A stretch of 36,647 bases of DNA from positions 1 to 36,647 of the forward strand of contig JBCBZW010000044.1 in NCBI GenBank assembly GCA_039815145.1, in the 5' to 3' direction. The DNA comes from Pseudomonadota bacterium (GTDB lineage Bacteria > Pseudomonadota > Gammaproteobacteria > Steroidobacterales > JBCBZW01). A program made the position numbers and the translations under genes. Positions 5,297-36,647 of this stretch are shown piece by piece (the first letter of the stretch is position 1; each line of letters begins with the position of its first letter). A model generated the notes under the pieces. That model searched no databases and had not been told where the DNA came from. It was given only the letters and a program-made list of their open reading frames with translations.

Positions 5297-6313
5297 ATGC
5301 ACCGCACGACTCGAACCCCCCTCGCCCTCCTGGGCGTCGCGCTGGCGATCATGGCCCTGGGCGGCACGGCGCACGGCGCCGCCGCGCCGGTCGACTTCGA
5401 CCCGCCACAGGCCGCGCCCGGCAACATGCGCTTCGCCTGGATCCACGGCAGCATCAGCGCCAAACACAATGCGGACGTGCGCGTGCAGGTGCATCGCTAC
5501 AACGAACACACCTACATCCTGCGCCAGAACCCGGCGGTGCACTGGGAAGCGCCGTTCATGTACCTGTTGATCGGGGAAGGTCGCGCCGTGCTCATCGACA
5601 CGGGGGCGACGGAGGAGACGGAGTACTTTCCCCTGCGCCCGACCGTGGAACGCGTGCTCGCCCGCTGGGCCGACGCGCGCGGCGTGAGGGTTCCTCACCT
5701 ATCGATCGTGCTCACGGGCGACGCCCCCGCGCAGACCGCGGGCCTTGGACAGTTCGAGGGCCGCCCCGAGACAACCATCATCGAGACCGGCGATTGGACG
5801 CAGACCCAGCACCTCACCCCTGGTGAGAACGGCGTCGCGACACTATCCCTCGGCGGCGATCGCCAACTGACGCTACTGCCGACGCCAGGCGTAAGCGCCC
5901 AAGGGTTGAGCGTCTACGATCCCTACACGGACTTTCTCTTCACCGGCACGAGCGTGCTGCCCGGGCGCATCGTGGTCCGCGACTACGACGCCTACGCTAA
6001 GAGCATCGAGCACCTGGCCGCCTTCGCGGGCGAACATCCCGTGAAGTGGCTGATGGGCGCGCAGATCGACATGAGCGCGGAGCCGGGTGTCGACTACCGA
6101 CTACGCAGCAACTACCGCCCGAATGAGCATGCGCTGGAACTGTCGCCCGCGGCCCTCGCCGACTGCCAGGCGGTGGTGACGCTGATCAACGGGCGGGAGT
6201 GGGTGGAGGTGCTGCCCGACTTCATCGTGATGCACGGCGTGGGGCGCGGCGAGCGCCCCTACGGCTACCCGGTCTACACGCCGCAGTTCCTGCAGCGACG
6301 CTGGTTGCGCTAG
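5297..6313 (+). CDS. MBL-fold paralogue without metal ligands (predicted pseudoenzyme)
   Basis: This 338-aa protein starts at ATG 5297, which follows CAGGAGAG; a GTG at 5276 overlapping the previous stop has no such site. Residues 1-29 are a signal peptide. It aligns along its whole length with the preceding MBL protein: RFAWIHGS/DTWIHGSK, EAPFMYLLIGEGRAVLID/EGAFMYLFFGNGQAMLID and PGVDYRLRSNYRPNE/PGVDYPIGSTWQPNE. Every metal position is changed. HLHGDH becomes a GDAPAQ stretch (about 141-146), H206 becomes V199, D225 becomes T218 and H263 becomes Q256. The frame is intact and codon use matches its neighbours, so it looks like a conserved non-catalytic relative and not a decaying gene. It could bind the substrate or product of its neighbour, or form a heterodimer with it (inference). 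Its stop overlaps the stop of the convergent hydroxylase gene within a single CTAG. Confidence 0.8.
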   Translation: MHRTTRTPLALLGVALAIMALGGTAHGAAAPVDFDPPQAAPGNMRFAWIHGSISAKHNADVRVQVHRYNEHTYILRQNPAVHWEAPFMYLLIGEGRAVLIDTGATEETEYFPLRPTVERVLARWADARGVRVPHLSIVLTGDAPAQTAGLGQFEGRPETTIIETGDWTQTQHLTPGENGVATLSLGGDRQLTLLPTPGVSAQGLSVYDPYTDFLFTGTSVLPGRIVVRDYDAYAKSIEHLAAFAGEHPVKWLMGAQIDMSAEPGVDYRLRSNYRPNEHALELSPAALADCQAVVTLINGREWVEVLPDFIVMHGVGRGERPYGYPVYTPQFLQRRWLR

Positions 6314-22053: not shown

Positions 22054-22662
22054 CTATCGCAAGTCGCGGGCACCGCGCGTCGGTATCCAACGCGACCCCT
22101 CGATCACGAGCAGGGCGACCAACCAACCGTAGGCCGCACCCGGATCGAAGGCCGTGAGTATCCAGTGCGCGAAGGCGAGTGCCGCCGCCACGTAGACGCT
22201 GCGATGAAGCCGCTTCCAACGCGGCCCGAGGCGACGCACGCTGGCGTTGTTACTGGTGGCGGCGAGCAACGCCATGATCAGGAGGCCCACCCAAGCGGTG
22301 AGATAGGCTGGCGTCAGCCCCTCGGCCAGCACCCGCGACCACGGCTGGCGCCACAGATAGGCCACGGCGTGCAACGTGAGGTAGGCGAAGCTGGCAACCC
22401 CGACCGCCCGGCGATGGCGCAATAGCCCCGATCGAAGACGTCCGCTGGGCAACCAGCGACACACGGGGGTGATGGCGAGCGCCACGATGACGAGCTGAAG
22501 CGCCAGCAAGCCCGTGTGGTGAATGTACTCGCCGTAGACGTGGCGGCCGGTGAGGTACTGGCCGGTCCACCACAGGGCAGGCAGGCTCAAGGCGACCCAG
22601 AGGATCGCCTTGGTCAGCGCGAACGAATACGCTGCGGCGCCTTCAGGCCCTCGCCCGCTCAA
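22054..22662 (-). CDS. msrQ: MsrQ-like haem-binding membrane protein
   Basis: The 202-aa protein begins at TTG 22662 behind AGGAG. It has about six membrane helices of the ferric reductase-like (YedZ/MsrQ) domain, with candidate haem histidines in YIHHTGLLALQL, TLHAVAYL, RLHRSVY and FAHW. MsrQ passes electrons from quinols or flavin to the periplasmic methionine sulfoxide reductase MsrP. No msrP gene is adjacent, whereas the two are usually paired. The partner may lie elsewhere, or this copy may serve another acceptor. It follows the helix-hairpin-helix gene by 8 bp and may share its transcript. Confidence 0.8.
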   Translation of the reverse strand: MSGRGPEGAAAYSFALTKAILWVALSLPALWWTGQYLTGRHVYGEYIHHTGLLALQLVIVALAITPVCRWLPSGRLRSGLLRHRRAVGVASFAYLTLHAVAYLWRQPWSRVLAEGLTPAYLTAWVGLLIMALLAATSNNASVRRLGPRWKRLHRSVYVAAALAFAHWILTAFDPGAAYGWLVALLVIEGSRWIPTRGARDLR

Positions 22663-22670
22663 GGCACCGC

Positions 22671-23333
22671 CTACTCCTGGACGGGATCGAGGACGACGTA
22701 GCTCTCCAGGCGCGCAAGCTCCTGCTCGTCCACGTACTTACCGATCTCCTTGCGGAACTGCTCGATGGACGCGTAGGGGCGGTACTCCTCGACCTCGTGC
22801 ACCATGCGCTCGCTCATCCCGGGGACGCGCAGCAGCTGGGCCTTGGTGCCCGCGTTCAGGGGCACGGGGATGTGCACGTACTGGGCGAGGCGAGCCACCT
22901 CCGTGGTATCGACATACTTGCCGATCTCGCGCCGGAACTGCTCCATGCTCGTGTACGGGCGGTATTCCTCGAACTCGTGGGCCATGCGCTCGCTCATGCC
23001 GGGAATGAGCATGATCTCCTCGCGGCTGGCGCTGTTGAGGTCGATCGCCCGGAAGGCGCGCGCGTAGAGCTCCGTGCGTTGCTCCTCGCTCAGCATGGGC
23101 GCGAGGACAGCGTCGAAGGCGCCGGCGGAGAGCACCGGTCGGGCCGCGACGATCGCCTGCGCCACCGCCTCGTCCACGTTCGGCAGCTGCTGAAGCTCAC
23201 CGGCGTCGATGAGATTGGGGTCGAGCACGCCACCGTCCGCGACGTGTTGCACCGGTGCCGGCGGGGTGCACGCGGTGAGGCCGACGGTCATGAGGGCGCA
23301 AAGGATGGCGACAACGGAGGGTCGAGTTCGCAA
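22671..23333 (-). CDS. Helix-hairpin-helix lipoprotein with internal repeats (ComEA-like)
   Basis: I place the start at TTG 23333, which has GGAG 8 nt upstream and puts a compact signal peptide before the lipobox LTAC (Cys22). A more distant TTG at 23378 has no such site. The 220-aa product has two almost identical repeats of 60-aa period (about residues 98-153 and 158-213). Each contains a helix-hairpin-helix (IPGMSERM / VPGMSERM) and a shared tail EEYRPY-x-S/I-x-EQFR-x-EIGKYVD. A more worn third copy precedes them. ComEA-type HhH domains bind double-stranded DNA without sequence preference in the periplasm. A DNA-uptake or envelope DNA-binding role is possible; these repeats can also mediate protein contacts. 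Confidence 0.7.
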   Translation of the reverse strand: MRTRPSVVAILCALMTVGLTACTPPAPVQHVADGGVLDPNLIDAGELQQLPNVDEAVAQAIVAARPVLSAGAFDAVLAPMLSEEQRTELYARAFRAIDLNSASREEIMLIPGMSERMAHEFEEYRPYTSMEQFRREIGKYVDTTEVARLAQYVHIPVPLNAGTKAQLLRVPGMSERMVHEVEEYRPYASIEQFRKEIGKYVDEQELARLESYVVLDPVQE

Positions 23334-23391
23334 GGCGGCAGCTCCACAGATCAATGAGGGCCACAACGCTACCCGCAAATGCGATTGATTT

Positions 23392-26671: not shown

Positions 26672-27340
26672 GTGATCGACCGCAGATTTACCCAGGCAAT
26701 CGAGGCGCCCGACGCCAGGACACCATCACTGCATGCCGTCGGTGCTGTCATCGCCAGCTTGCTCATCCTGGCTGGCGCCACAGCAGGCAACGCTGAGACG
26801 CCCCCACCTGTCGATGCGACGGCGCCCTACCTCGAGGAAGCGCGACGGCTGGCGAAGAGCTTCTCCAGTCGCCTGCAGGGCGAGTTGCAAGCCGCCCTCT
26901 CCGCGAGCGAGCCGCAGAACGCCGTGGCCAACTGCCGCCTCGTCGCCCCCGCCAAGGCCAACGAGCTGACGGAACAGCACGGGTGGTCCGTGGCGCGCAC
27001 GGCCCTGCGCGTGCGCAACCCGCGCAACGCACCGACCCTGCGCGAGCGCGCCGTGTTGCTCGACTTTCAACGCCGAGCGGCGGCGGGGGAGCATCTTTCG
27101 GCGATGGAGCACATCGCCATCGTGGAGGACGGCGGCTTGCCCTACGTGCACTACATGCGCGCCATCACCACCGGCGGCGTGTGCCTGACCTGCCATGGGG
27201 AGAGCATCGATGATCCGGTGCGTGAGGCGATCGCAGCGCTTTACCCGGCCGATGCGGCGACCGGCTTTACGCCGGGGTCGTTGCGCGGCGCCTTTACCTT
27301 CGTACGGCCGCTGGCGCCCGCGGAGGAGCATTCGCCCTAG
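26672..27340 (+). CDS. DUF3365/Tll0287-like c-type haem protein
   Basis: The 222-aa protein starts at GTG 26672 with AGGA upstream. A signal peptide or anchor covers about residues 20-42. The body matches the Tll0287-like (DUF3365) domain: LAKSFSSRLQGELQAALS, NAVANCRLVAPAKANEL and RVRNPRNAPTLRERAVL. A single haem-attachment site CLTCHG lies near residue 170. Family members are periplasmic haem or redox sensors, and the domain also occurs as the input of signalling proteins. Here it stands alone without an output domain. It lies beside, but not in, the hydrogenase operon, which runs the other way. Confidence 0.82.
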   Translation: MIDRRFTQAIEAPDARTPSLHAVGAVIASLLILAGATAGNAETPPPVDATAPYLEEARRLAKSFSSRLQGELQAALSASEPQNAVANCRLVAPAKANELTEQHGWSVARTALRVRNPRNAPTLRERAVLLDFQRRAAAGEHLSAMEHIAIVEDGGLPYVHYMRAITTGGVCLTCHGESIDDPVREAIAALYPADAATGFTPGSLRGAFTFVRPLAPAEEHSP

Positions 27341-27360: not shown

Positions 27361-27684
27361 TTAGGCGGGCGCCTGCCTCGCTTCTAGGAGTCGCAGGGCG
27401 GCGAGCTCGTCGTCCCATCGACAACGCTTGAGCACGCGCGCGTCCTCAGGAATCCCGCAGCTGGCCAGGTACTCGCGCGCGGGAATCACGCGATCTCCGC
27501 GCTTGTTGACCACCTTGATCATCGAACCCCCGGCGCCCTCCTGGCGCACTGGCAGGAGCACGAGCTCACCGTCGCGCTCCAGCAGAGCAACAGCTGATAG
27601 CCCCGCTAGGTAACGCGAGTAGACCTCGGCACTGAGGTAGATGTTACCGCCCTGCAGATAAGCTTCCCCTTGGGCCTCAGGCAT
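27361..27684 (-). CDS. Hydrogenase-operon protein of unknown function
   Basis: The 107-aa protein begins at ATG 27684, overlapping the end of the protease gene by 8 bp, and is the last gene of the leftward hydrogenase operon. It has no signal or membrane segment. Readable features are an N-terminal beta-rich part (GGNIYLSAEVYSRYLAG, VALLERDGELVLLPVR), the basic MIKVVNKRGDRVIPAREYL, and a helical C-terminus with two cysteines (SCGIP, KRCRW). I do not recognise a family. Its tight coupling to the maturation protease suggests a role in assembly or regulation of the hydrogenase. Confidence 0.72.
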   Translation of the reverse strand: MPEAQGEAYLQGGNIYLSAEVYSRYLAGLSAVALLERDGELVLLPVRQEGAGGSMIKVVNKRGDRVIPAREYLASCGIPEDARVLKRCRWDDELAALRLLEARQAPA

Positions 27685-28168
27685 CGGCCGCCACCGTTGC
27701 GTGCTCGGTCGACGCCAGGCGTTGCCAGATCAGCTCGACCACCTTCTCGATGGCCGTGGCGACGGGCTCGGAAACGTCGAGGCCAAGATCTACGCACTGC
27801 GCTTCGATGAGAAACACGCTCACGTCGTCGGGAAAGTCCTCGCGAAAGATCTTGCGCCCCGCGTACAAGGCATGGTCCCAGCGAAAATCGTGCAAGCTGA
27901 AGCTGCCCTGGTGCACGTTCTCGAGCTCTTCCCCGGGCACTTCGAAGACGGTGCCCGGCGGCGACTCACTGAGGTTGGCGTCGACGATGATCAACGCCGT
28001 GCTGCCGCGGGCTTGGAACATCGTGTCGATGCCGGAGGTCCCGGCGTCAAACACGCGCACGCCGGCCACGGGGTTCGCGTCGAGCCGCTCCCGGAGACGT
28101 TGGGCCACCAACACACCTGCCGCATCGTCGCAACGGTTGGTGTTGCCGCATCCGATGATCGTCAGCAT
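27677..28168 (-). CDS. hupD: [NiFe]-hydrogenase maturation endopeptidase
   Basis: The 163-aa protein starts at ATG 28168 behind AGGAGG. It opens with MLTIIGCGNTNRCDDAAGV, the G-x-GN-x-x-x-x-DD signature of HupD/HyaD/HybD proteases. Further metal-contact candidates are the aspartate in IIVDANLSE and the histidine in FSLHDFRWDHAL. After nickel insertion this protease removes the short C-terminal peptide of the large subunit, in the cytoplasm. Its expected substrate, a large subunit with a 16-residue extension after the last histidine ligand, is encoded in the same operon. Confidence 0.92.
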   Translation of the reverse strand: MLTIIGCGNTNRCDDAAGVLVAQRLRERLDANPVAGVRVFDAGTSGIDTMFQARGSTALIIVDANLSESPPGTVFEVPGEELENVHQGSFSLHDFRWDHALYAGRKIFREDFPDDVSVFLIEAQCVDLGLDVSEPVATAIEKVVELIWQRLASTEHATVAADA

Positions 28169-28189: not shown

Positions 28190-28522
28190 TCAGATGCGCC
28201 AGAGGCGACAGGACCACTTAGGCCCCACCGGCAGCATCAGCTCCGGGAGCTCACAAAACCCACGATGCACCTGATAGTACATGCAGGTATCGCAGGCCTG
28301 CTCATCTTCGCCCTCCCCGTACGGCACCGACGTGAAGCCACCCACCACCAGCTTGGCAACGTGATCTTCGGTCGGGACGTGGGCCAGGCGGGCCACCACC
28401 TCCATCACCTGCTCGTGGGTGTAGGCGCGCGGCTCGATCTCGGTGATGAGCCCACCCTCGAGCAGGCGCTTGAGCACCAAGCGAAGGCGTGCATCCTGCT
28501 GTGCGGATGGTTCGCCGCTCAT
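28190..28522 (-). CDS. Small four-cysteine protein A (HiPIP-like motif), hydrogenase operon
   Basis: The 110-aa protein from ATG 28522 has no signal peptide. The N-terminal half is helical (RLRLVLKRLLEGGL, YTHEQVMEVVARL). The C-terminal third holds four cysteines spaced C-x2-C-x9-C-x14-C, in CDTCMYYQVHRGFCELPEL and then KWSCRLWRI. The next gene upstream encodes a paralogue with identical spacing and the same final CRLWRI. The C-x2-C pair, aromatic residues and the W-x-C-x-x-W ending resemble high-potential iron-sulfur proteins. An electron carrier binding one [4Fe-4S] cluster is thus a fair guess; a structural zinc site is the alternative. Confidence 0.7.
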   Translation of the reverse strand: MSGEPSAQQDARLRLVLKRLLEGGLITEIEPRAYTHEQVMEVVARLAHVPTEDHVAKLVVGGFTSVPYGEGEDEQACDTCMYYQVHRGFCELPELMLPVGPKWSCRLWRI

Positions 28523-28529
28523 CGGGCGC

Positions 28530-28844
28530 TCAAATCCGCCAGAGTCGACACCACCACTCGGGCTCCACGGGCACGGCCAGCTCGGGCAGGTCGCACCACT
28601 TGCGGTGGACGAGGTAATACATGCACTCGAGGCAGCGTTGATCGTCCTCTCCGTAGGGATGATCCACGAAGCCCGACACCACGAGCTTGCCCTCCAGATC
28701 GTCTTCGGGAAGCTCTCGCAGCTCCTTGAGCACGGCCTCGAACTGCACGTGATCTTCTGGAAAGGGTTCGGTCTGCGTCTTCAGACCGTCCTCCATCATC
28801 TTCCCGATCTGCTCGCGCAGCGCGTCATCGTCTTCCTTGCTCAA
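28530..28844 (-). CDS. Small four-cysteine protein B (HiPIP-like motif), hydrogenase operon
   Basis: I place the start at TTG 28844, with GGAG 7 nt upstream, giving 104 residues beginning MSKEDDDALREQIG. This aligns with the start of its paralogue, whereas a farther TTG at 28886 lacks a ribosome site. It shares C-x2-C-x9-C-x14-C (CLECMYYLVHRKWCDLPEL, then WWCRLWRI) and the GGF/SGF-x-x-x-PYGE segment with the next gene. The two together look like an old duplication kept side by side. They lie between the large-subunit and protease genes, where electron-transfer or assembly partners are expected. A strong hairpin separates this gene from hupL. Confidence 0.68.
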   Translation of the reverse strand: MSKEDDDALREQIGKMMEDGLKTQTEPFPEDHVQFEAVLKELRELPEDDLEGKLVVSGFVDHPYGEDDQRCLECMYYLVHRKWCDLPELAVPVEPEWWCRLWRI

Positions 28845-28889
28845 AACCCCGCTCCCCAGCGCGTCGGTTGGTCTGTACGACCGCAAACG

Positions 28890-28920
28890 AAGGGGGTAGC
28901 GCTGGGCGCGCTACCCCCTT
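28890..28920 (-). terminator. Strong intra-operon hairpin after hupL (attenuator or RNA-processing site)
   Basis: AAGGGGGTAGCGC (28890-28902) pairs perfectly with GCGCTACCCCCTT (28908-28920) around a 5-nt loop. It begins 15 bp past the hupL stop. No T-run follows on the minus strand. It probably causes partial termination or protects the upstream mRNA, keeping the two structural subunits above the accessory genes. Confidence 0.65.
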
Positions 28921-28934
28921 CCCGGCGGTACTCA

Positions 28935-30536
28935 TCAAGCGGTCTTGAAGCGAGCCAGTTCTTTGCCCGTCTTGGCGTCGTGCGCGTGCACGGTGCAGAC
29001 CAGACAGGAGTCGTAGGAACGTGCCACGTGACCCACCTCGACGGGATCCGCGGGATCCGCGATGGGCGTGCCGACGAGGGCCTCCTCGATGGGTCCTCGC
29101 TCCTGCTCGTCCGAGCGCGGACCGACGTTCCAGGTAGTTGGCGAGATGATCTGGTAGTTCTGGATCTTGCCGTCCTTGACGTCGATCCAATGACACAAGG
29201 CACCTCGAATCGCCTCCGTCGCGCCCCAACCGCGCCCGTCTTGTTCCTTCGGCTTCACGTAGAAGGGCTCGTCCAGGCGGAAGTTGCGAAGGCAGCGCTC
29301 GATGTGACGGTAGATGTACTTGAACTCGTGCATGCGTGCAAAGTGACGCAGCAGCACGTTCGAGCCGCCCATCTTGCGATGCATGTCGAGCACCAGGCCG
29401 TCGCGGTGCTGCCAACCCTCCATGTGGCTGCCGCCGTAGACCATCTCACGGGCCAAGGGCCCTGCCTCCAAGTGCCCGTTGTCGGCGTGCAGCACAGCCG
29501 TGGACCAGGAGTACTTGCCGTCGAAGTCACCGTCGTTCTTGGCTACCGGCTGCGTGGTGCGATCGTACGGATGCACGGGGCCGCCCGGCTCGTCATACCA
29601 AGCGTGGCTCGTGTCCTCTCGGGCAAAGCCCTGCTCCATGAGTTTGTGCGTACCCGTGCTCGCGTCGTACACACCGCTCGGCATCATCATCGCACCATTG
29701 CGGCTGTCGATCGTCGGGCGTTGGTAGCGATCCTCATCCGGCAGGTAGCCCCAAGAGACGAACTTCTCGAGGCCCGCGCCGTACTTGTCGAGGCCGACGT
29801 CCATGCCCATGCGCCACATCAGGCCGAGGTCGGAGTTGGCGTGCTCCGGCTTCTCGTTGAGCCAGGCCATGAAGTCGTCGTAGGTCTCGATCTCCTCGTA
29901 GCGCTCCATGGAGCAGCCGAGCCACATGGGCTCGATCCAGTTGGTGCGGAAGTGCTCGAGGATGGACCAGGAGCGGGTGATGTCCGACAGGGTCGGCGAG
30001 CACATCACGCCACCGGGCACCATGTAGCTCGAATGGGGCCATTGGCCGCCGAACAGGGCGTAGATTTCCACCGGACGGCCGGAGATGGTGACCCCGTGCT
30101 CGTAGTGCGTGCCCGTGAACGGTGCCCAGCGTTTCACCGCCTCCTCGTAGAACGGGGAGTTGCGGTAGTTCTTGTTGCACATGTCGATCATGAACAACCC
30201 GTAGTGGTGGCGTGGCAAGCTTTGCAGGCTCTCTGCCAACTGCCCCAGGTTGCGGGCGATGATCGCGTTGCGCGGCACCTCCGTTTGCCACGCCGTGTCT
30301 AGCGCCCAGGCGGCGCAGGTGAGATGCGACGCGCCGCAGATGCCACAGGCGCGCGGCGTCACCACCAGGCCCGCCTGCGGATCCTTATCGCGCAGAATGA
30401 TCTCGAAACCGCGGAACAACTCCGCCGAGGTCCAGGCGTTGGTCACGACACCGTCTTGAATGTCGACGCGAACGTCCAGATCCCCTTCGACGCGGCCTAC
30501 CGGCGAGATATCCAGTGTTTGTACAGCACCAGTCAT
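28935..30536 (-). CDS. hupL: [NiFe]-hydrogenase large subunit, group 2a type
   Basis: The 533-aa protein starts at ATG 30536 behind GAGAGGGA; a longer frame to 30611 enters hupS. The N-terminal L1 motif is RACGICGASH (C64, C67). The C-terminal L2 motif is DSCLVCTVH (C511, C514, H517), with serine where most hydrogenases have proline. Those four cysteines bind the Ni-Fe centre. Sixteen residues after H517 form the peptide removed by the maturation protease. The subunit splits H2 in the cytoplasm and passes electrons to the small subunit encoded 19 bp upstream. Its overall look matches group 2a enzymes such as mycobacterial Huc, which can oxidise H2 at trace levels. Confidence 0.95.
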   Translation of the reverse strand: MTGAVQTLDISPVGRVEGDLDVRVDIQDGVVTNAWTSAELFRGFEIILRDKDPQAGLVVTPRACGICGASHLTCAAWALDTAWQTEVPRNAIIARNLGQLAESLQSLPRHHYGLFMIDMCNKNYRNSPFYEEAVKRWAPFTGTHYEHGVTISGRPVEIYALFGGQWPHSSYMVPGGVMCSPTLSDITRSWSILEHFRTNWIEPMWLGCSMERYEEIETYDDFMAWLNEKPEHANSDLGLMWRMGMDVGLDKYGAGLEKFVSWGYLPDEDRYQRPTIDSRNGAMMMPSGVYDASTGTHKLMEQGFAREDTSHAWYDEPGGPVHPYDRTTQPVAKNDGDFDGKYSWSTAVLHADNGHLEAGPLAREMVYGGSHMEGWQHRDGLVLDMHRKMGGSNVLLRHFARMHEFKYIYRHIERCLRNFRLDEPFYVKPKEQDGRGWGATEAIRGALCHWIDVKDGKIQNYQIISPTTWNVGPRSDEQERGPIEEALVGTPIADPADPVEVGHVARSYDSCLVCTVHAHDAKTGKELARFKTA

Positions 30537-30555: not shown

Positions 30556-31518
30556 TTAGACCACGAACATGTCTTCTTCTGCCCACTGCGGGGCCGCGGT
30601 TTTCGCCGCACCCGTGAGCTTGATATAGCCCTTCTTGTCGACGCCCTCGGGAAGATCCTTGGGCACGCCCATCACCGTTTGCGTCTTGAACACGGTGCCT
30701 GGCGCCAGGTCGAAGAACGGGAACTCCGGCTCCGTACAGCCCATGCAAGGCATCCCCGCTCGGGTCTTGGAGGACTGGCGGTTCCAGAGGATGCGGTTGC
30801 AAGGTGAGTGGGTCATCGGCCCGCGACAGCCAAGGTCGTAGAACAAGCAACCTTTTCGTTGACCGAACTCGGTGGCCGAGACCTTGTAAGCGAAGTGCAT
30901 GTTTCGCGTACAGCCGGTCTGGGTGAAGCTCTGGAAGAACGTCTTCGGTCGCTGAAACTCATCCAGCGCGACATCGCCCGCATGGCCCGTGGCCACGCCG
31001 ACCAGGATCTGCGTGACCCAATCCGGGTGGGCCGGGCAGCCTGGGATATTGATCACCGGCAAGCCCGCCTTGCTCTTGAAGCCCTTGCCGAGGAATCCCC
31101 CGTGATCCCGCTTCAAGAACTGCAACCCCACTGACTCGGAGGGGTTGGGGGCCGTCGCCGGAATGCCGCCCCAGGTGGCGCAATCGCCGAGGGCAACGAC
31201 GAAGTCCGACACGTCGGAGAGCTCCTGCACCCAGTCCTTCATCGCTCGCCCCGCAAAGCGGTTCCACTCACCGGTACCGTCCGGCGCCTGCACCACCGAG
31301 CCCTCGAACACGAAGATGTCCAGCTTGATCTTGCCGGAGATGCAGTCGCGCAGCATTTGCTGCAGGTTGTCGCCCAGTTCCATCCCCAGGGACGGGTGCC
31401 AGAGCACGTTGATACCGAAGTCCGTTACCAAGTCGCAGGCGCTTGGTTCCTCGGCGTTGAGGAAGGACATCGTGTTGCCGGAACACGCCCCGCCTTGTAG
31501 CCACAGCAGGTTTGCCAT
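30556..31518 (-). CDS. hupS: [NiFe]-hydrogenase small subunit, group 2a (Huc-like)
   Basis: The 320-aa protein starts at ATG 31518 behind CGGGGGA. It has no twin-arginine signal, so the enzyme stays inside the cell. The opening LLWLQGGACSGNTMSFLN is characteristic of group 2a. Cluster ligands I can place: proximal C12, C113 (LGDCATWGG) and C161 (IPGCPAHPDW), with asparagine at 15 where a fourth cysteine is usual; distal C203, C224 and C231, with glutamine at 200 where a histidine is usual; medial C240, C258 and C261. Each cluster therefore has only three cysteines, which suits three [3Fe-4S] clusters as reported for Huc. It would carry electrons from the Ni-Fe site to a quinone or partner protein. 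Confidence 0.93.
   Translation of the reverse strand: MANLLWLQGGACSGNTMSFLNAEEPSACDLVTDFGINVLWHPSLGMELGDNLQQMLRDCISGKIKLDIFVFEGSVVQAPDGTGEWNRFAGRAMKDWVQELSDVSDFVVALGDCATWGGIPATAPNPSESVGLQFLKRDHGGFLGKGFKSKAGLPVINIPGCPAHPDWVTQILVGVATGHAGDVALDEFQRPKTFFQSFTQTGCTRNMHFAYKVSATEFGQRKGCLFYDLGCRGPMTHSPCNRILWNRQSSKTRAGMPCMGCTEPEFPFFDLAPGTVFKTQTVMGVPKDLPEGVDKKGYIKLTGAAKTAAPQWAEEDMFVV

Positions 31519-32003: not shown

Positions 32004-32007
<4 letters not shown>
31765..32007 (-). CDS. Rubredoxin-like / zinc-ribbon protein linked to the hydrogenase
   Basis: The 80-aa protein begins at TTG 32007, overlapping the activator's stop, with a good AGGGAG 7 nt upstream. The first 50 residues are polar and probably disordered. 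The last 30 contain two C-x2-C knuckles, WCSRCKGIWWGYVG and ECPACGN, with the aromatic core of a zinc ribbon or rubredoxin. Rubredoxin-like HupI/HoxR proteins protect or assist hydrogenases in air; a plain zinc ribbon is equally possible. Co-translation with the activator and its place just before the hupS promoter tie it to this system. Confidence 0.72.
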
Positions 32008-33455
<1,448 letters not shown>

Positions 33456-33570
33456 AGCAACCACTCTAGCTGCAAAGTTCCCTTACATCAAAGAAAGCTC
33501 TACTGCACTGAATCAATCATAGATGCATACTAAGTTATCATATTGCAATTCAGTTTAGCCGGCGATAATT

Positions 33571-33597
33571 TCGCTTCATCCGATTTCCATGAAGCGA
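33571..33597. promoter_or_regulatory. Inverted repeat in the leader of the TPR gene
   Basis: TCGCTTCAT (33571-33579) pairs perfectly with ATGAAGCGA (33589-33597) around 9 nt, ending 11 bp before the TTG I take as the TPR start. The surrounding 130 bp are AT-rich against a GC-rich background. It may be an operator or a leader hairpin for the rightward accessory operon. Confidence 0.5.
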
Positions 33598-33608
33598 GTG
33601 ACACGACC

Positions 33609-34631
33609 TTGGCTACCCCCGAATCCATCGCCGATATCGAATATCGCCAGGCCCTGGCCGCCGTCGAGGCGCCCGACCTCCCACTGCCCGATCAGATCGA
33701 CATGCTGATCGAGATCGCGATGGGCCTGCAGCAGCGGCCGAAGACGCCGAAGCAGCTGCACGATGCGGTGTCCCTCTACGACCGGGCGCTGGAGAAGTGC
33801 CCCGAGGGCGAGCCCCTCCTGGCCGCGCGTATCCAGGCCCGCCGCGCCACCGCGCGCCAGGCGATCCCCCACGACGGCCCGCAATACCTGGAGGCAGCAC
33901 AGGACGATCTGCAGGCCGCGCTCATGACCTTCAGCGAGATCGGCCTCCCGGAGGAGACCGCGGAAGCCCAGATGAACCTGGGGCTCGTGTTGCAGTCCCT
34001 GGCTGCCGTGGGACGGGCCAAGATCACCGACGCCATCGCCGCCTACCAGCGCGCGGCCCGCTTCTTCCGCGGCGAGGCCTACGCCACGGAGTACGCGATC
34101 CTCCACAACAACCTCGCCACCGCCTACCTATCGATCCCGATGACCGATGAGAAATCGCGCATGCGCGAAGCGCTGGCGGTGCAGTGCTTCGAAGACGCCC
34201 TGCAGGTGGTCACCCTGATCGACAATCCGACCGAATACGCGATGCTGCAGAACAACCTGGGCAACGCCCTGCAGTACGTGACCAGCAGCCACGCGGTGGA
34301 GAACAACCTCCGCGCCCTCGAGGCCTACGACGAGGCCCTGAAGGTGCGCACGCCGCGCGAGACGCCGGTCGAATACGCCAACACGATCGCCAACAAGGCC
34401 AACTGCCTGGCCAACCTGCCCGACGACCCCGAGCACCCTGAGGGCGGCAACGCCCAACGCCTGCACGAGGCGCGATCGCTGCTCCTGGAAGCACGCAGCT
34501 TGTTCCAGGCGAACGGCGAAGGCGCACGCGCGGCGATGCTCGATGAGGCGCTCAGCGAACTCTTCGGCGACGACGCCGACCCATCCGCGCCCCCTGCCGA
34601 TGCTGAGAGCTTCGGCAAGGCCCGAATCTGA
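33609..34631 (+). CDS. TPR-repeat protein, hydrogenase accessory
   Basis: The start is uncertain. I use TTG 33609 because the stretch before it is AT-rich and contains an inverted repeat; the frame is open back to a TTG at 33543, and neither start has a good ribosome site. The roughly 340-aa product lacks a signal peptide and is made of tetratricopeptide-like helix pairs, for example EYAILHNNLATAYLSI, EYAMLQNNLGNALQYV and EYANTIANKANCLANL, which recur about every 50-60 residues. TPR proteins are assembly scaffolds. It opens the rightward operon with two tiny membrane proteins, a NifU/Rieske fusion and an NHL protein, a set known from group 2a hydrogenase clusters. Confidence 0.82.
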   Translation: MATPESIADIEYRQALAAVEAPDLPLPDQIDMLIEIAMGLQQRPKTPKQLHDAVSLYDRALEKCPEGEPLLAARIQARRATARQAIPHDGPQYLEAAQDDLQAALMTFSEIGLPEETAEAQMNLGLVLQSLAAVGRAKITDAIAAYQRAARFFRGEAYATEYAILHNNLATAYLSIPMTDEKSRMREALAVQCFEDALQVVTLIDNPTEYAMLQNNLGNALQYVTSSHAVENNLRALEAYDEALKVRTPRETPVEYANTIANKANCLANLPDDPEHPEGGNAQRLHEARSLLLEARSLFQANGEGARAAMLDEALSELFGDDADPSAPPADAESFGKARI

Positions 34632-34653: not shown

Positions 34654-34848
34654 ATGGAAGTAGCAACGTTATTGCTCGCAATCCTCCTCGCCTTCGTCGC
34701 CGGTGTCGCGGGCGGCGTGGTGGGCGGCGTCGCCGTCGGTGGCAAGCACATCGGCAATGACCTCGCCGCCATGATGGGCGCCTTCTACGGCCCCCTGGCC
34801 GCCCTGCCCGGCATCGCCGTGGCGCTCATCGTGTTGACCTTCCTGTAG
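34654..34848 (+). CDS. Tiny two-helix membrane protein
   Basis: The 64-aa protein starts at ATG 34654 behind GGAGAG. It has two hydrophobic helices (about 4-28 and 42-63), with a glycine-rich first helix (VAGVAGGVVGGVAVGG) and a short polar link (KHIGNDLAAMMG). Glycine zippers of this kind pack helices together or form oligomers. I know no family. With the next gene it could form a membrane anchor or quinone-contact site for the otherwise soluble hydrogenase (inference). Confidence 0.72.
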   Translation: MEVATLLLAILLAFVAGVAGGVVGGVAVGGKHIGNDLAAMMGAFYGPLAALPGIAVALIVLTFL

Positions 34849-34860
34849 GAGCGCCTCGCC

Positions 34861-35085
34861 ATGTTCGACATGTTTTTGAACTCCGTCACCCTCTTCCTGC
34901 GCGGGAAGCTGTTCAAGGATCTGGACAAGGTCATCCGCCAGGTGGTGATCGGTGCCTTGGTGGTCGCAGCGCTGTGCGTGGCGCTGAAGCTCGCCGGCCT
35001 ATCGCTTCCCATCGCTGCGGCGGCGAGCGGCTTCACCGGCGGTCTGCTGCAGCCGTGGCTGTTCCGTAACCTCAAGTACGCGTGA
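34861..35085 (+). CDS. Small membrane protein with amphipathic start
   Basis: The 74-aa protein starts at ATG 34861 behind TAGGAG. An amphipathic N-terminal stretch (FDMFLNSVTLFLRGKLFKDLDKVIRQ) precedes one or two membrane helices (about 27-60). It ends WLFRNLKYA. It has no recognised family. Its stop overlaps the GTG start of the NifU/Rieske gene (GTGA). Placement suggests a membrane partner of the hydrogenase electron chain. Confidence 0.72.
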   Translation: MFDMFLNSVTLFLRGKLFKDLDKVIRQVVIGALVVAALCVALKLAGLSLPIAAAASGFTGGLLQPWLFRNLKYA

Positions 35086-35975
35086 GTGCTGTGAGCGCAT
35101 CTCCAGAGCAACTGAGCCCCCCGGCGAACGACCTCGATTCGCTGCTGCACGAAATCGACGCACTCGAGGGGCTGGTCGCGGGCTGGGATGAGCAGCAACG
35201 CATGACCGTGGGCGCCCTGCGCACGGCGATCGACGCCCTCAACCGGGAGGCGTTCCGGCGCCTGATCCAGCAGGTGAAGCAGGAGCCTGCTGCCCTAGGT
35301 GCGCTCAAGGGCTCGCTCAGCGATGACGTGGTGTACACCGTCCTGCGCCACCATGGACTGGTCAAAGCCTCCCTGGAGGAGCGCATCGAAGCGGCCTTGG
35401 AAACGGTGAGACCGCAGCTGGCGACCCACGGCGGGGACGTGGAACTGGTGGCGATCGAGCCACCGAATGCCGTGACCGTACGCCTGGTCGGCGCCTGCGA
35501 TGGCTGTCCGGCAGCCGGGCTCACCCTGAGTGAAGGCGTCGAGAAGGCGATTCGCGAACACTGCCCCGAGATCACCGAGGTACGCAAAGCCAAGGGCGGA
35601 ACGAGCGCCAGCAGCAGTGGCGGTGAGCACGTAGTCAGCTTCGTCAGCCCCTTCGCGCGCGCCAGCGACGCCGGGTGGACCGATGCCGCCAAGGCCGATG
35701 AGCTGCGCGAGGGCGAGATCCTGATCAAGGAGCGCGAAGGCCACTCGCTCATCCTCAGCCGCTTCGGCAGCCGCGTTGTCTGCTACGAGAACGCGTGCGC
35801 CCACTTAGGCATGCCGATGGACATGGGTGAGGTGCGCAACGGCGTACTCGTCTGCCCCCACCACGCCTTCGAGTACTCCCTGGAGAGCGGTGAATGCCTC
35901 ACCGCGAAGGAAGTGCAATTGCAAACCCACGCCGTGCGCGTGCTCGGCGACCGCGTGCAGGTGAAGTTCTCATGA
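35082..35975 (+). CDS. NifU-like / Rieske fusion iron-sulfur protein (HucE-like)
   Basis: The 297-aa protein starts at GTG 35082 (a second GTG at 35091 is possible). Residues 1-100 are helical. A NifU C-terminal domain follows (about 105-170, ATHGGDVELV, CDGCPAAG with the C-x2-C cluster site). After a serine/glycine linker comes a Rieske domain (about 185-297) with CAHLG and CPHHAFEY, giving the two cysteines and two histidines of a [2Fe-2S] centre. Such NifU-Rieske proteins accompany group 2a and 1h hydrogenases and are thought to carry electrons onward or help cluster assembly. It overlaps both neighbours by 4 bp. Confidence 0.9.
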   Translation: MSAVSASPEQLSPPANDLDSLLHEIDALEGLVAGWDEQQRMTVGALRTAIDALNREAFRRLIQQVKQEPAALGALKGSLSDDVVYTVLRHHGLVKASLEERIEAALETVRPQLATHGGDVELVAIEPPNAVTVRLVGACDGCPAAGLTLSEGVEKAIREHCPEITEVRKAKGGTSASSSGGEHVVSFVSPFARASDAGWTDAAKADELREGEILIKEREGHSLILSRFGSRVVCYENACAHLGMPMDMGEVRNGVLVCPHHAFEYSLESGECLTAKEVQLQTHAVRVLGDRVQVKFS

Positions 35976-36647
35976 GCGCCCGACAAGTGCATATGCGGGT
36001 GGCCCCCGATCCCACGCTGCGCGTGGACGCGGCCCGCCAGGTCCCGCACCAGGCCCTGTTCACGCCGACGCCGATCGCCATCGTGGGCGGCGCGGCGGAG
36101 CCCGGCATTGTGACCAGCGGCGTTAGCCCCGATCGTGCGACCTGCTTCGGTCCGCGCGGCGCCGCCCTGCTCGGCGCCGACGGGCCCCTGTGGGTGTCGG
36201 ACACCGGTCACCATCGCTTGCTCGGGTGGCGCCAGATCCCCGCGGATGAAGGCGCGCCGGCCGACTGGGTGATCGGCCAGCCGGACTTCTCTCGCGAAGG
36301 CCGCAACGCCAAGGGCCCCTGCGGCCCGACCACCTTGAACGTCCCCACCGGGGTGTGCCGCTTTGGCGAGCACGGCATGGCGGTGGCGGACGCCTGGAAC
36401 CACCGCGTGCTGCTCTGGCATCGCGCGCCCACCGACTCGCACGTGGCACCGGACGTGGTGCTCGGCCAGGCGAACTTCGACGAAGACCTACCTAACCGCG
36501 GTGCGGACGCGCCGAGCGCGGATACGCTCTACTGGCCGTACGGCGTGAGCGCCGCCGACGGCAAACTCTTCGTCGCCGACGCCGAGAACCGTCGTGTGTT
36601 GATCTGGGACGACATCCCGACGAAGAACGGCCAGCCAGCGGATCGCG
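35972..36647 (+). CDS. NHL-repeat protein, 3'-truncated by the window edge
   Basis: The frame opens at ATG 35972, overlapping the NifU/Rieske stop as ATGA, and stays open to the window end (225 residues visible). There is no signal peptide. Three NHL-type beta-propeller blades can be seen: LWVSDTGHHRLLGWR, MAVADAWNHRVLLWH and LFVADAENRRVLIWD, with PTGV or WPYGV turns between them. NHL propellers bind proteins or ligands. NHL genes are regular members of group 2a hydrogenase clusters, but their role there is not known to me. The gene confirms that the accessory operon continues past the window. Confidence 0.85.
   Translation, partial: MSARQVHMRVAPDPTLRVDAARQVPHQALFTPTPIAIVGGAAEPGIVTSGVSPDRATCFGPRGAALLGADGPLWVSDTGHHRLLGWRQIPADEGAPADWVIGQPDFSREGRNAKGPCGPTTLNVPTGVCRFGEHGMAVADAWNHRVLLWHRAPTDSHVAPDVVLGQANFDEDLPNRGADAPSADTLYWPYGVSAADGKLFVADAENRRVLIWDDIPTKNGQPADR

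Follow-up and report, generated by a model that had tools for sequence, protein, structure and literature searches.

Group 2a [NiFe]-hydrogenases are described as oxidising atmospheric H2 in many bacteria (available portions of PMC7784904 and PMC9381531), and the sole mechanism found in our literature search for coupling them to the membrane is that of mycobacterial Huc, which operates via HucM. In Mycobacterium smegmatis Huc, according to the available text of Grinter et al. 2023 (PMC10017518), menaquinone is brought to the small subunit HucS by the HucM stalk; the reported menaquinone contacts in HucS are two Tyr side chains and Lys212, the latter through its backbone. The NifU-Rieske protein HucE is given as essential for H2 oxidation in the same organism (PMC6883350, in part), and the accessible part of Islam et al. 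2020 (PMC7784904) mentions HucE and maturation factors as well as hypothetical proteins, NHL proteins among them. A table of the Parageobacillus thermoglucosidasius huc operon, in the excerpt available (PMC12976888), places the protease beside the large subunit and includes a DUF1641 protein. For Acidithiobacillus ferrooxidans, the accessible text of Kucera et al. 2020 (PMC7735108) describes a gene near hupLS, DN052_04130, as encoding a putative high-potential iron-sulfur protein (HiPIP), reports induction of DN052_04125-04130 during anaerobic growth on H2, and regards DN052_04130 and/or the NifU-Rieske protein as the likely missing link to ubiquinone.

The stretch of DNA analysed here (hereafter the window; 36,647 nucleotides) contains a hydrogenase operon on its minus strand, comprising the small subunit gene hupS/hucS (30556..31518), the group 2a large subunit gene hupL/hucL (28935..30536, start inferred) and a hydrogenase maturation protease (27677..28168). 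Placed between hupL and the protease, on the same strand, are two genes for four-Cys proteins: P2, an A-type protein of 104 amino acids (CLECMYYLVHRKWC...WWCRLWRI; 28530..28844, TTG start), and P1, a B-type protein of 110 amino acids (CDTCMYYQVHRGFC...WSCRLWRI; 28190..28522, ATG start). The spacing is tight, 7 nt from the end of P2 to P1 and 21 nt from the end of P1 to the protease. The TTG start of P2 follows GGGGAGCGGGG, and a longer P2 frame is possible from a TTG at 28886. Both open reading frames of the tandem pair reported in the preliminary description are observed directly, each with the pattern C-x2-C-x9-C-x14-C and each terminating in W-x-C-R-L-W-R-I. Across the six frames of the window this four-Cys pattern is seen two times, compared to a mean of 0.08 and a maximum of 1 in 60 windows shuffled by 2-mers.

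Several features place the enzyme in group 2a: M. smegmatis Huc (7uur, E 2.2e-158) comes first among PDB matches of the small subunit, both subunits are Huc-type, and HucE-type and NHL genes are close by. The remainder of the minus-strand cluster consists of a gene for a small operon protein of unknown function (107 amino acids; 27361..27684), a counterpart of which is present in loci without the pair too (L144 and L172), and a sigma-54-dependent regulator (32004..33464) scoring under the cut-offs of named subfamilies. On the plus strand follow a TPR-like protein of the huc locus (33543..34631), a 64-residue peptide with two hydrophobic segments (34654..34848), a 74-residue peptide with one long hydrophobic segment (34861..35085), the HucE-type protein with NifU-like and Rieske domains (35082..35975) and an NHL-repeat protein (35972..36646, start inferred) that continues past the end of the window.

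A perfect 14-bp inverted repeat, without a T run, occupies positions 28889-28921, in the gap that separates the hupL stop from the P2 start, and is possibly an mRNA hairpin; 46 of 79 gaps between hupL and the A gene, that of the window included, fold at z below -2 relative to approximate dinucleotide shuffles. Adjoining the hydrogenase operon on the plus strand (26672-27340) is a protein that looks exported and has a single CxxCH haem motif. Further away, on the minus strand, a putative lipoprotein (22671-23378) contains repeated 'IPGMSERM...EEYRPY' units, which we take to be helix-hairpin-helix-like, and is adjoined by a hydrophobic protein (22054-22662, also minus strand).

Relatives of the pair were collected from genomes, the best 80 of 171, i.e. 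the most similar ones, being kept. A and B are both present in all 80 loci, in the order A-type gene then B-type, with the usual signatures CxECMYY...WWCRLW and CxTCMYY...WSCRLW, respectively. Some of these loci are near-copies of one another (L016, L017 and L020; likewise L044-L047), and one locus from the class genomes considered below (G062) is apparently the same record as L019. The spacing of 9 and 14 residues between the later Cys residues is exact in 80 of the 81 A-type and 79 of the 80 B-type genes in the kept loci, the exceptions being the A gene of the decayed locus L034, which is frameshifted, and a B gene in L021, where the third Cys codon contains an N. Identity between A and B of the same locus has a median of 46% (63 loci). 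In a 45-protein tree covering 21 loci besides the window, A and B fall on opposite sides of one branch with support of 100/99, the tree program giving a long-branch warning for L038_B, L012_A2 and L082_B. P1 and P2 are thus paralogues from a true, old duplication, as the preliminary description had supposed, and the well-supported split indicates that this duplication predates the spread of the pair over Pseudomonadota, Nitrospirota and Acidobacteriota. Two loci depart from the usual arrangement. A Kangiella MAG (L012:9281-10318) has A-A-B with the second A divergent, while L034:1445-2166 is a decayed pair locus in which a hupL remnant, a frameshifted A and an intact B are seen, with no protease match in the flank.

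Scans of P1, P2 and all members of the A and B alignments against Pfam and NCBIfam gave no match over a cut-off, so that the profile search advocated in the preliminary description returned no HiPIP assignment from Pfam; for the B members this refers to the matches listed, 25 of 29 Pfam families. In searches of PDB sequences, neither P1 nor the A profile gave a match. The B profile gave eight (best E 0.0012), designed helical repeats being among the chains matched, and these were judged to be chance. The same judgement was made of low-scoring family matches that include, among the 67 B members, DUF2284, 'predicted metal-binding protein' (four members, best E 4.2e-4), and VenA (one, E 0.0031) and, among the 65 A members, an insect TPR model (seven, best E 0.026) and DsdC (one, E 0.0022). 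None of 37 pattern matches in viral contigs is a relative.

Structures were modelled with AlphaFold2, template-free, from alignments of 65 A or 67 B proteins, yielding pLDDT values of 86.6 for P2 (102 residues, from 28838 on) and 93.0 for P1. When the P1 model was compared with 350,542 PDB chains using Foldseek, the top of three matches was the HiPIP of R. marinus (3h31; E 0.29, prob 0.63), the remaining two being unrelated with E of 8-9; neither model matched anything at E <= 0.001. Alignment of the P1 model with the top 22 chains by VIA-align gave Z of at least 2 in 12, and all ten PDB entries listed are HiPIPs, with moderate Z of 4.1-5.1. The small HiPIP 1isu aligns with residues 52-110 of the P1 model (54 of 62 aligned, rmsd 2.5), indicating that the C-terminal half alone corresponds to the HiPIP domain, to which the N-terminal helices are added. 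For the P2 model, the single match with Z of at least 2 among eight chains is again 3h31, and is weak (Z 2.6), while Foldseek found an unrelated ribosomal chain as its sole match and no HiPIP at E <= 10. On these models P1 is predicted to have the HiPIP fold, with moderate scores, and the predicted resemblance is moderate for B and weak for A.

Sequence comparison with HiPIPs gives a similar picture of distant likeness. Median scores of A and B against the HiPIP profile are 5.1 and 5.2 bits, versus -1.8 and -0.9 for Cys-preserving shuffles, all far under the Pfam cut-off of 22 bits in the case of the real proteins. Profile-profile comparison gives poor HiPIP probabilities of 8.8% and 11.4%, too weak to be relied on alone. 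Of the 65 A members, 12 give weak matches to PF01355 at E <= 1, the lowest E being 0.039, and the A-type proteins of L038 and L039 score 11.8 and 12.7 bits; PF01355 is not matched by P1 or P2 and, for the 67 B members, does not appear among the matches listed. In the 14 of 23 HiPIP loci that were parsed (the other nine were left out, being on the wrong strand), the second and third Cys residues are separated by 11-14 residues, as against 9 in A and B, a value outside that of known members. The separation of 14 residues between the third and fourth lies within the HiPIP range, set by 12-13 in the 14 HiPIPs and 16 in 8z82.

Known HiPIPs have RR within the first 35 residues in 13 of 14 cases and a hydrophobic segment in 9 of 14 (assessed over a slightly shorter window). 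In none of the 65 A and 67 B proteins is there an N-terminal hydrophobic export segment, RR by itself being found near the N-terminus of three A and nine B proteins, and the pair therefore lacks the Tat-type export signature of HiPIPs, in agreement with the preliminary description. The host genome has two HiPIPs elsewhere, one of which (L002) has an RR-bearing N-terminus. Since the profile cut-off, the spacing between the second and third Cys and the export signal all separate them from that family, P1 and P2 are HiPIP-fold relatives and not HiPIPs proper: the likeness proposed at the outset stands as regards the structure comparison of P1 and the profile scores above shuffled sequences, but not as strict membership.

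A hupL match accompanies 79 of the 80 kept loci, the exception (L065) beginning at a contig end and the hupL of L034 being a remnant; a protease follows the pair in 79 of 80, L034 being the exception. Among 72,556 plasmid records the family occurs in 12, at two places in each and, by coordinates, no more than 1 kb from hupL (four of the 12 were inspected in full). Exactly these 12 records have a plasmid hupL at 74-77% identity, and the family is in none of the next five, at 53-55%, which belong to Thermus, Mycobacterium intracellulare, Sulfobacillus, Runella and Hymenobacter. Among 398 genomes of the phylum, a hupL match of at least 75% was found in four, and exactly these four have A/B matches at E < 1e-30; in the other 26 phylum genomes with hydrogenases (<= 42%) there was no such motif within flanks of 1.5 kb. 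Matches to P1 in 274 genomes of the class were confined to three, namely the own genome, G062 (where it lies beside hupL and a protease) and G185. This last appeared at first sight to be a family member away from any hydrogenase and is in reality a decayed locus with an 89-residue hupL fragment at 90% identity. Homologues common outside hydrogenase loci, named in the preliminary description as a finding that would refute its reading, were seen nowhere in the 80 genome loci, 12 plasmids and 398 phylum genomes, and the one remote-looking match in the class genomes is this decayed locus. There (L173, G185:C1:1064000-1078000, at about 5490-6070), a C-terminal fragment of the group 2a hupL is followed by an A gene cut just past its first Cys, with a transposase-like frame close by as judged by eye. 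Another candidate family member, in G444, overlaps a 666-codon frame and was judged to be chance.

The pair is not, however, a general accompaniment of hupSL, a point on which the preliminary description had proposed a survey. In all six other group 2a loci hupL is directly followed by the protease, with no pair. A corresponding hupL was found in two of 198 Nitrospirota genomes, both with the pair, and a group 2a hupL in two of 297 Acidobacteriota genomes, one at 72% with the pair and one at 52% without. In a HupL tree of 29 rows, for which the outgroup drew a long-branch warning, the 19 pair-bearing rows form one clade (100/100), so that the trait is explained by one change, while the pairless rows do not form one clade. 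On this tree the pair is restricted to a single clade of group 2a hydrogenases, which takes in Nitrospira moscoviensis, Acidithiobacillus, rhizobia and methanotrophs; cyanobacterial group 2a loci lie outside the sample. The association with group 2a hupSL is hence upheld for one clade.

The same clade differs from other group 2a enzymes in a further respect. A member of DUF1641, the family to which the HucM membrane stalk belongs, is encoded at the hydrogenase locus in none of 41 pair-bearing genomes or records (for plasmid records the search covered the plasmid alone) compared to four of the six pairless group 2a loci, six being the whole comparison sample. The four are Thermus, M. intracellulare, Sulfobacillus and the Acidobacteriota genome G946, the last with a weak match (25.5 bits) at 3.7 kb from hupS. 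The M. intracellulare protein, beside hucS, is HucM as judged by its sequence match to 7uus_Q (E 2.9e-34), the only one of the four for which that identity was established. The host genome has no DUF1641, setting its enzyme apart from Huc with HucM, and pair-bearing A. ferrianus (G671) has one on another contig. The contrast recurs within Acidobacteriota, where the pair occurs without DUF1641 in G884 and G885, and DUF1641 without the pair in G946. Pair and DUF1641/HucM anticorrelate in the sample; two Bacteroidota plasmids have neither, so that their exclusion is not a strict swap. The idea of a division by quinone, the pair belonging to organisms with ubiquinone and HucM to those with menaquinone, was dropped, given the quinone types of Nitrospirota and Acidobacteriota, both of which carry the pair.

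A further feature of pair-bearing loci is the presence, between the genes for the TPR protein and HucE, of coding sequences for two small hydrophobic peptides. In the 70 pair-bearing loci with matches to both these neighbours, the 74-residue peptide is present in all 70 (70 at E <= 0.01) and the 64-residue peptide in 64 (54 at E <= 0.01); at equal thresholds neither was found in the four pairless loci having both neighbours.

With a confidence that is evenly divided, we read P1 and P2 as HiPIP-like cytoplasmic [4Fe-4S] relays belonging to an alternative membrane-coupling module of one group 2a clade. The location beside the maturation protease is also compatible with a role in assembly. The pair sits between hupL and the protease in 78 of 80 loci (exceptions L065 and L034) and is tied to the hydrogenase, as might be expected of hydrogenase-specific maturation factors that carry or protect a cluster during assembly of HupS and HupL in air and transfer no electrons during turnover. 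Such roles have a precedent in the accessible text of Islam et al. 2019 (PMC6883350), which raises assembly functions for HucE/HhyE and cites a rubredoxin-related maturation protein of R. eutropha. We nevertheless consider this alternative unlikely, since other group 2a enzymes with the same small-subunit Cys columns manage without the pair, and the missing DUF1641 and the membrane peptides of the same clade point to coupling.

The quinone site of the enzyme bears on a second alternative. The counterparts of M. smegmatis HucS Tyr229, Tyr301 and Lys212 in the window's HupS are Tyr227, Tyr298 and Lys212, and the quinone-contact residues, as given in the portion of the Huc report available, are unchanged in 77 of 77 pair-bearing small subunits. 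The idea that the quinone site was lost in HupS is rejected on this ground; HupS may still reduce quinone itself, and a carrier is perhaps unneeded. A and B could then be structural subunits of HupSL that replace HucM as a scaffold or quinone gate, their metal only holding the fold, an arrangement that would also suit loci without DUF1641 and with two membrane peptides encoded close by. We regard it as quite improbable, for a fold otherwise known from redox proteins would make an unusual scaffold, and the Cys spacing is fixed in both paralogues over three phyla.

Zinc proteins commonly have four-Cys sites, but that the four Cys bind zinc in a regulating or stabilising pair, the HiPIP likeness being a modelling accident, is very improbable despite the weak sequence evidence for HiPIP and the weak DUF2284 matches of a few B members, because all ten PDB entries listed for P1 are HiPIPs and the Cys residues are flanked by aromatics (CMYY, WWCRLW) in a manner that is HiPIP-like by sequence comparison.

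Returning to the relay reading, from sequence and models we infer a redox role for A and B as follows. The C-terminal ~58 residues of each would adopt a HiPIP-like fold in which the four conserved Cys hold one cubane [4Fe-4S] cluster per protein. Together with the two small membrane peptides, A and B would form the unit that couples HupSL to the membrane where the locus lacks HucM. Electrons from H2 would leave the distal cluster of HupS for A and/or B, presumably docked on HupSL and acting as partners, and would pass from there to the quinone pool or to the Rieske centre of HucE. The structure scores, moderate with Z of about 5 or less, speak against this, and instead of relaying electrons the pair may dock, gate or help assemble the enzyme. 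That the HucM-free clade as a whole (Pseudomonadota, Nitrospirota and some Acidobacteriota) couples via a HiPIP-fold [4Fe-4S] pair and two membrane peptides is a tentative proposal, to which we give slightly less than even credence. The pair is at any rate a small, testable candidate for the membrane coupling of this hydrogenase clade. If the proposal is true, it would constitute a second way in which a soluble hydrogenase that scavenges H2 is linked to the respiratory chain, and would place a HiPIP-fold carrier on the cytoplasmic side.

Comparison with described systems shows that the pair is not wholly new, since a putative HiPIP as electron link was already proposed in the available text of Kucera et al. 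2020 (PMC7735108). DN052_04130 of the A. ferrooxidans hup operon is like the present genes in its apparent place beside hupL and in its proposed role as a link to ubiquinone; judged by gene order, it would be the A gene and DN052_04125 the B gene. The accessible text of that paper differs in naming one gene as HiPIP, without calling its neighbour a paralogue, and in containing nothing on fold, distribution or the missing HucM. The novelty originally claimed for a duplicated carrier is to that extent reduced, and survives in the duplication, of which no account was found: our literature search, which extended neither to the majority of subscription papers nor to Koch et al. 2014 on the Nitrospira hydrogenase, found duplication, fold, clade restriction and HucM exclusion unreported. 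HucE resembles A and B as an iron-sulfur protein from the same locus, but occurs both with and without the pair and so does not explain it. HucM of M. smegmatis Huc shares the proposed job, giving a group 2a hydrogenase of the cytoplasm its connection with quinone in the membrane, but is of another sequence family and is described in the available text as a menaquinone-delivering stalk, with no metal site mentioned there (PMC10017518). Finally, A and B resemble the HiPIP family (PF01355; 3h31, 1isu, 1hip) in the predicted C-terminal fold (of P1), in a C-x2-C followed by aromatics and in a fourth Cys beside or near Trp, then x-x-W. They are unlike it in having an N-terminal helical extension, a separation of 9 residues between the second and third Cys, no export signal and scores under the Pfam cut-off, and in being tandem paralogues linked to a hydrogenase.
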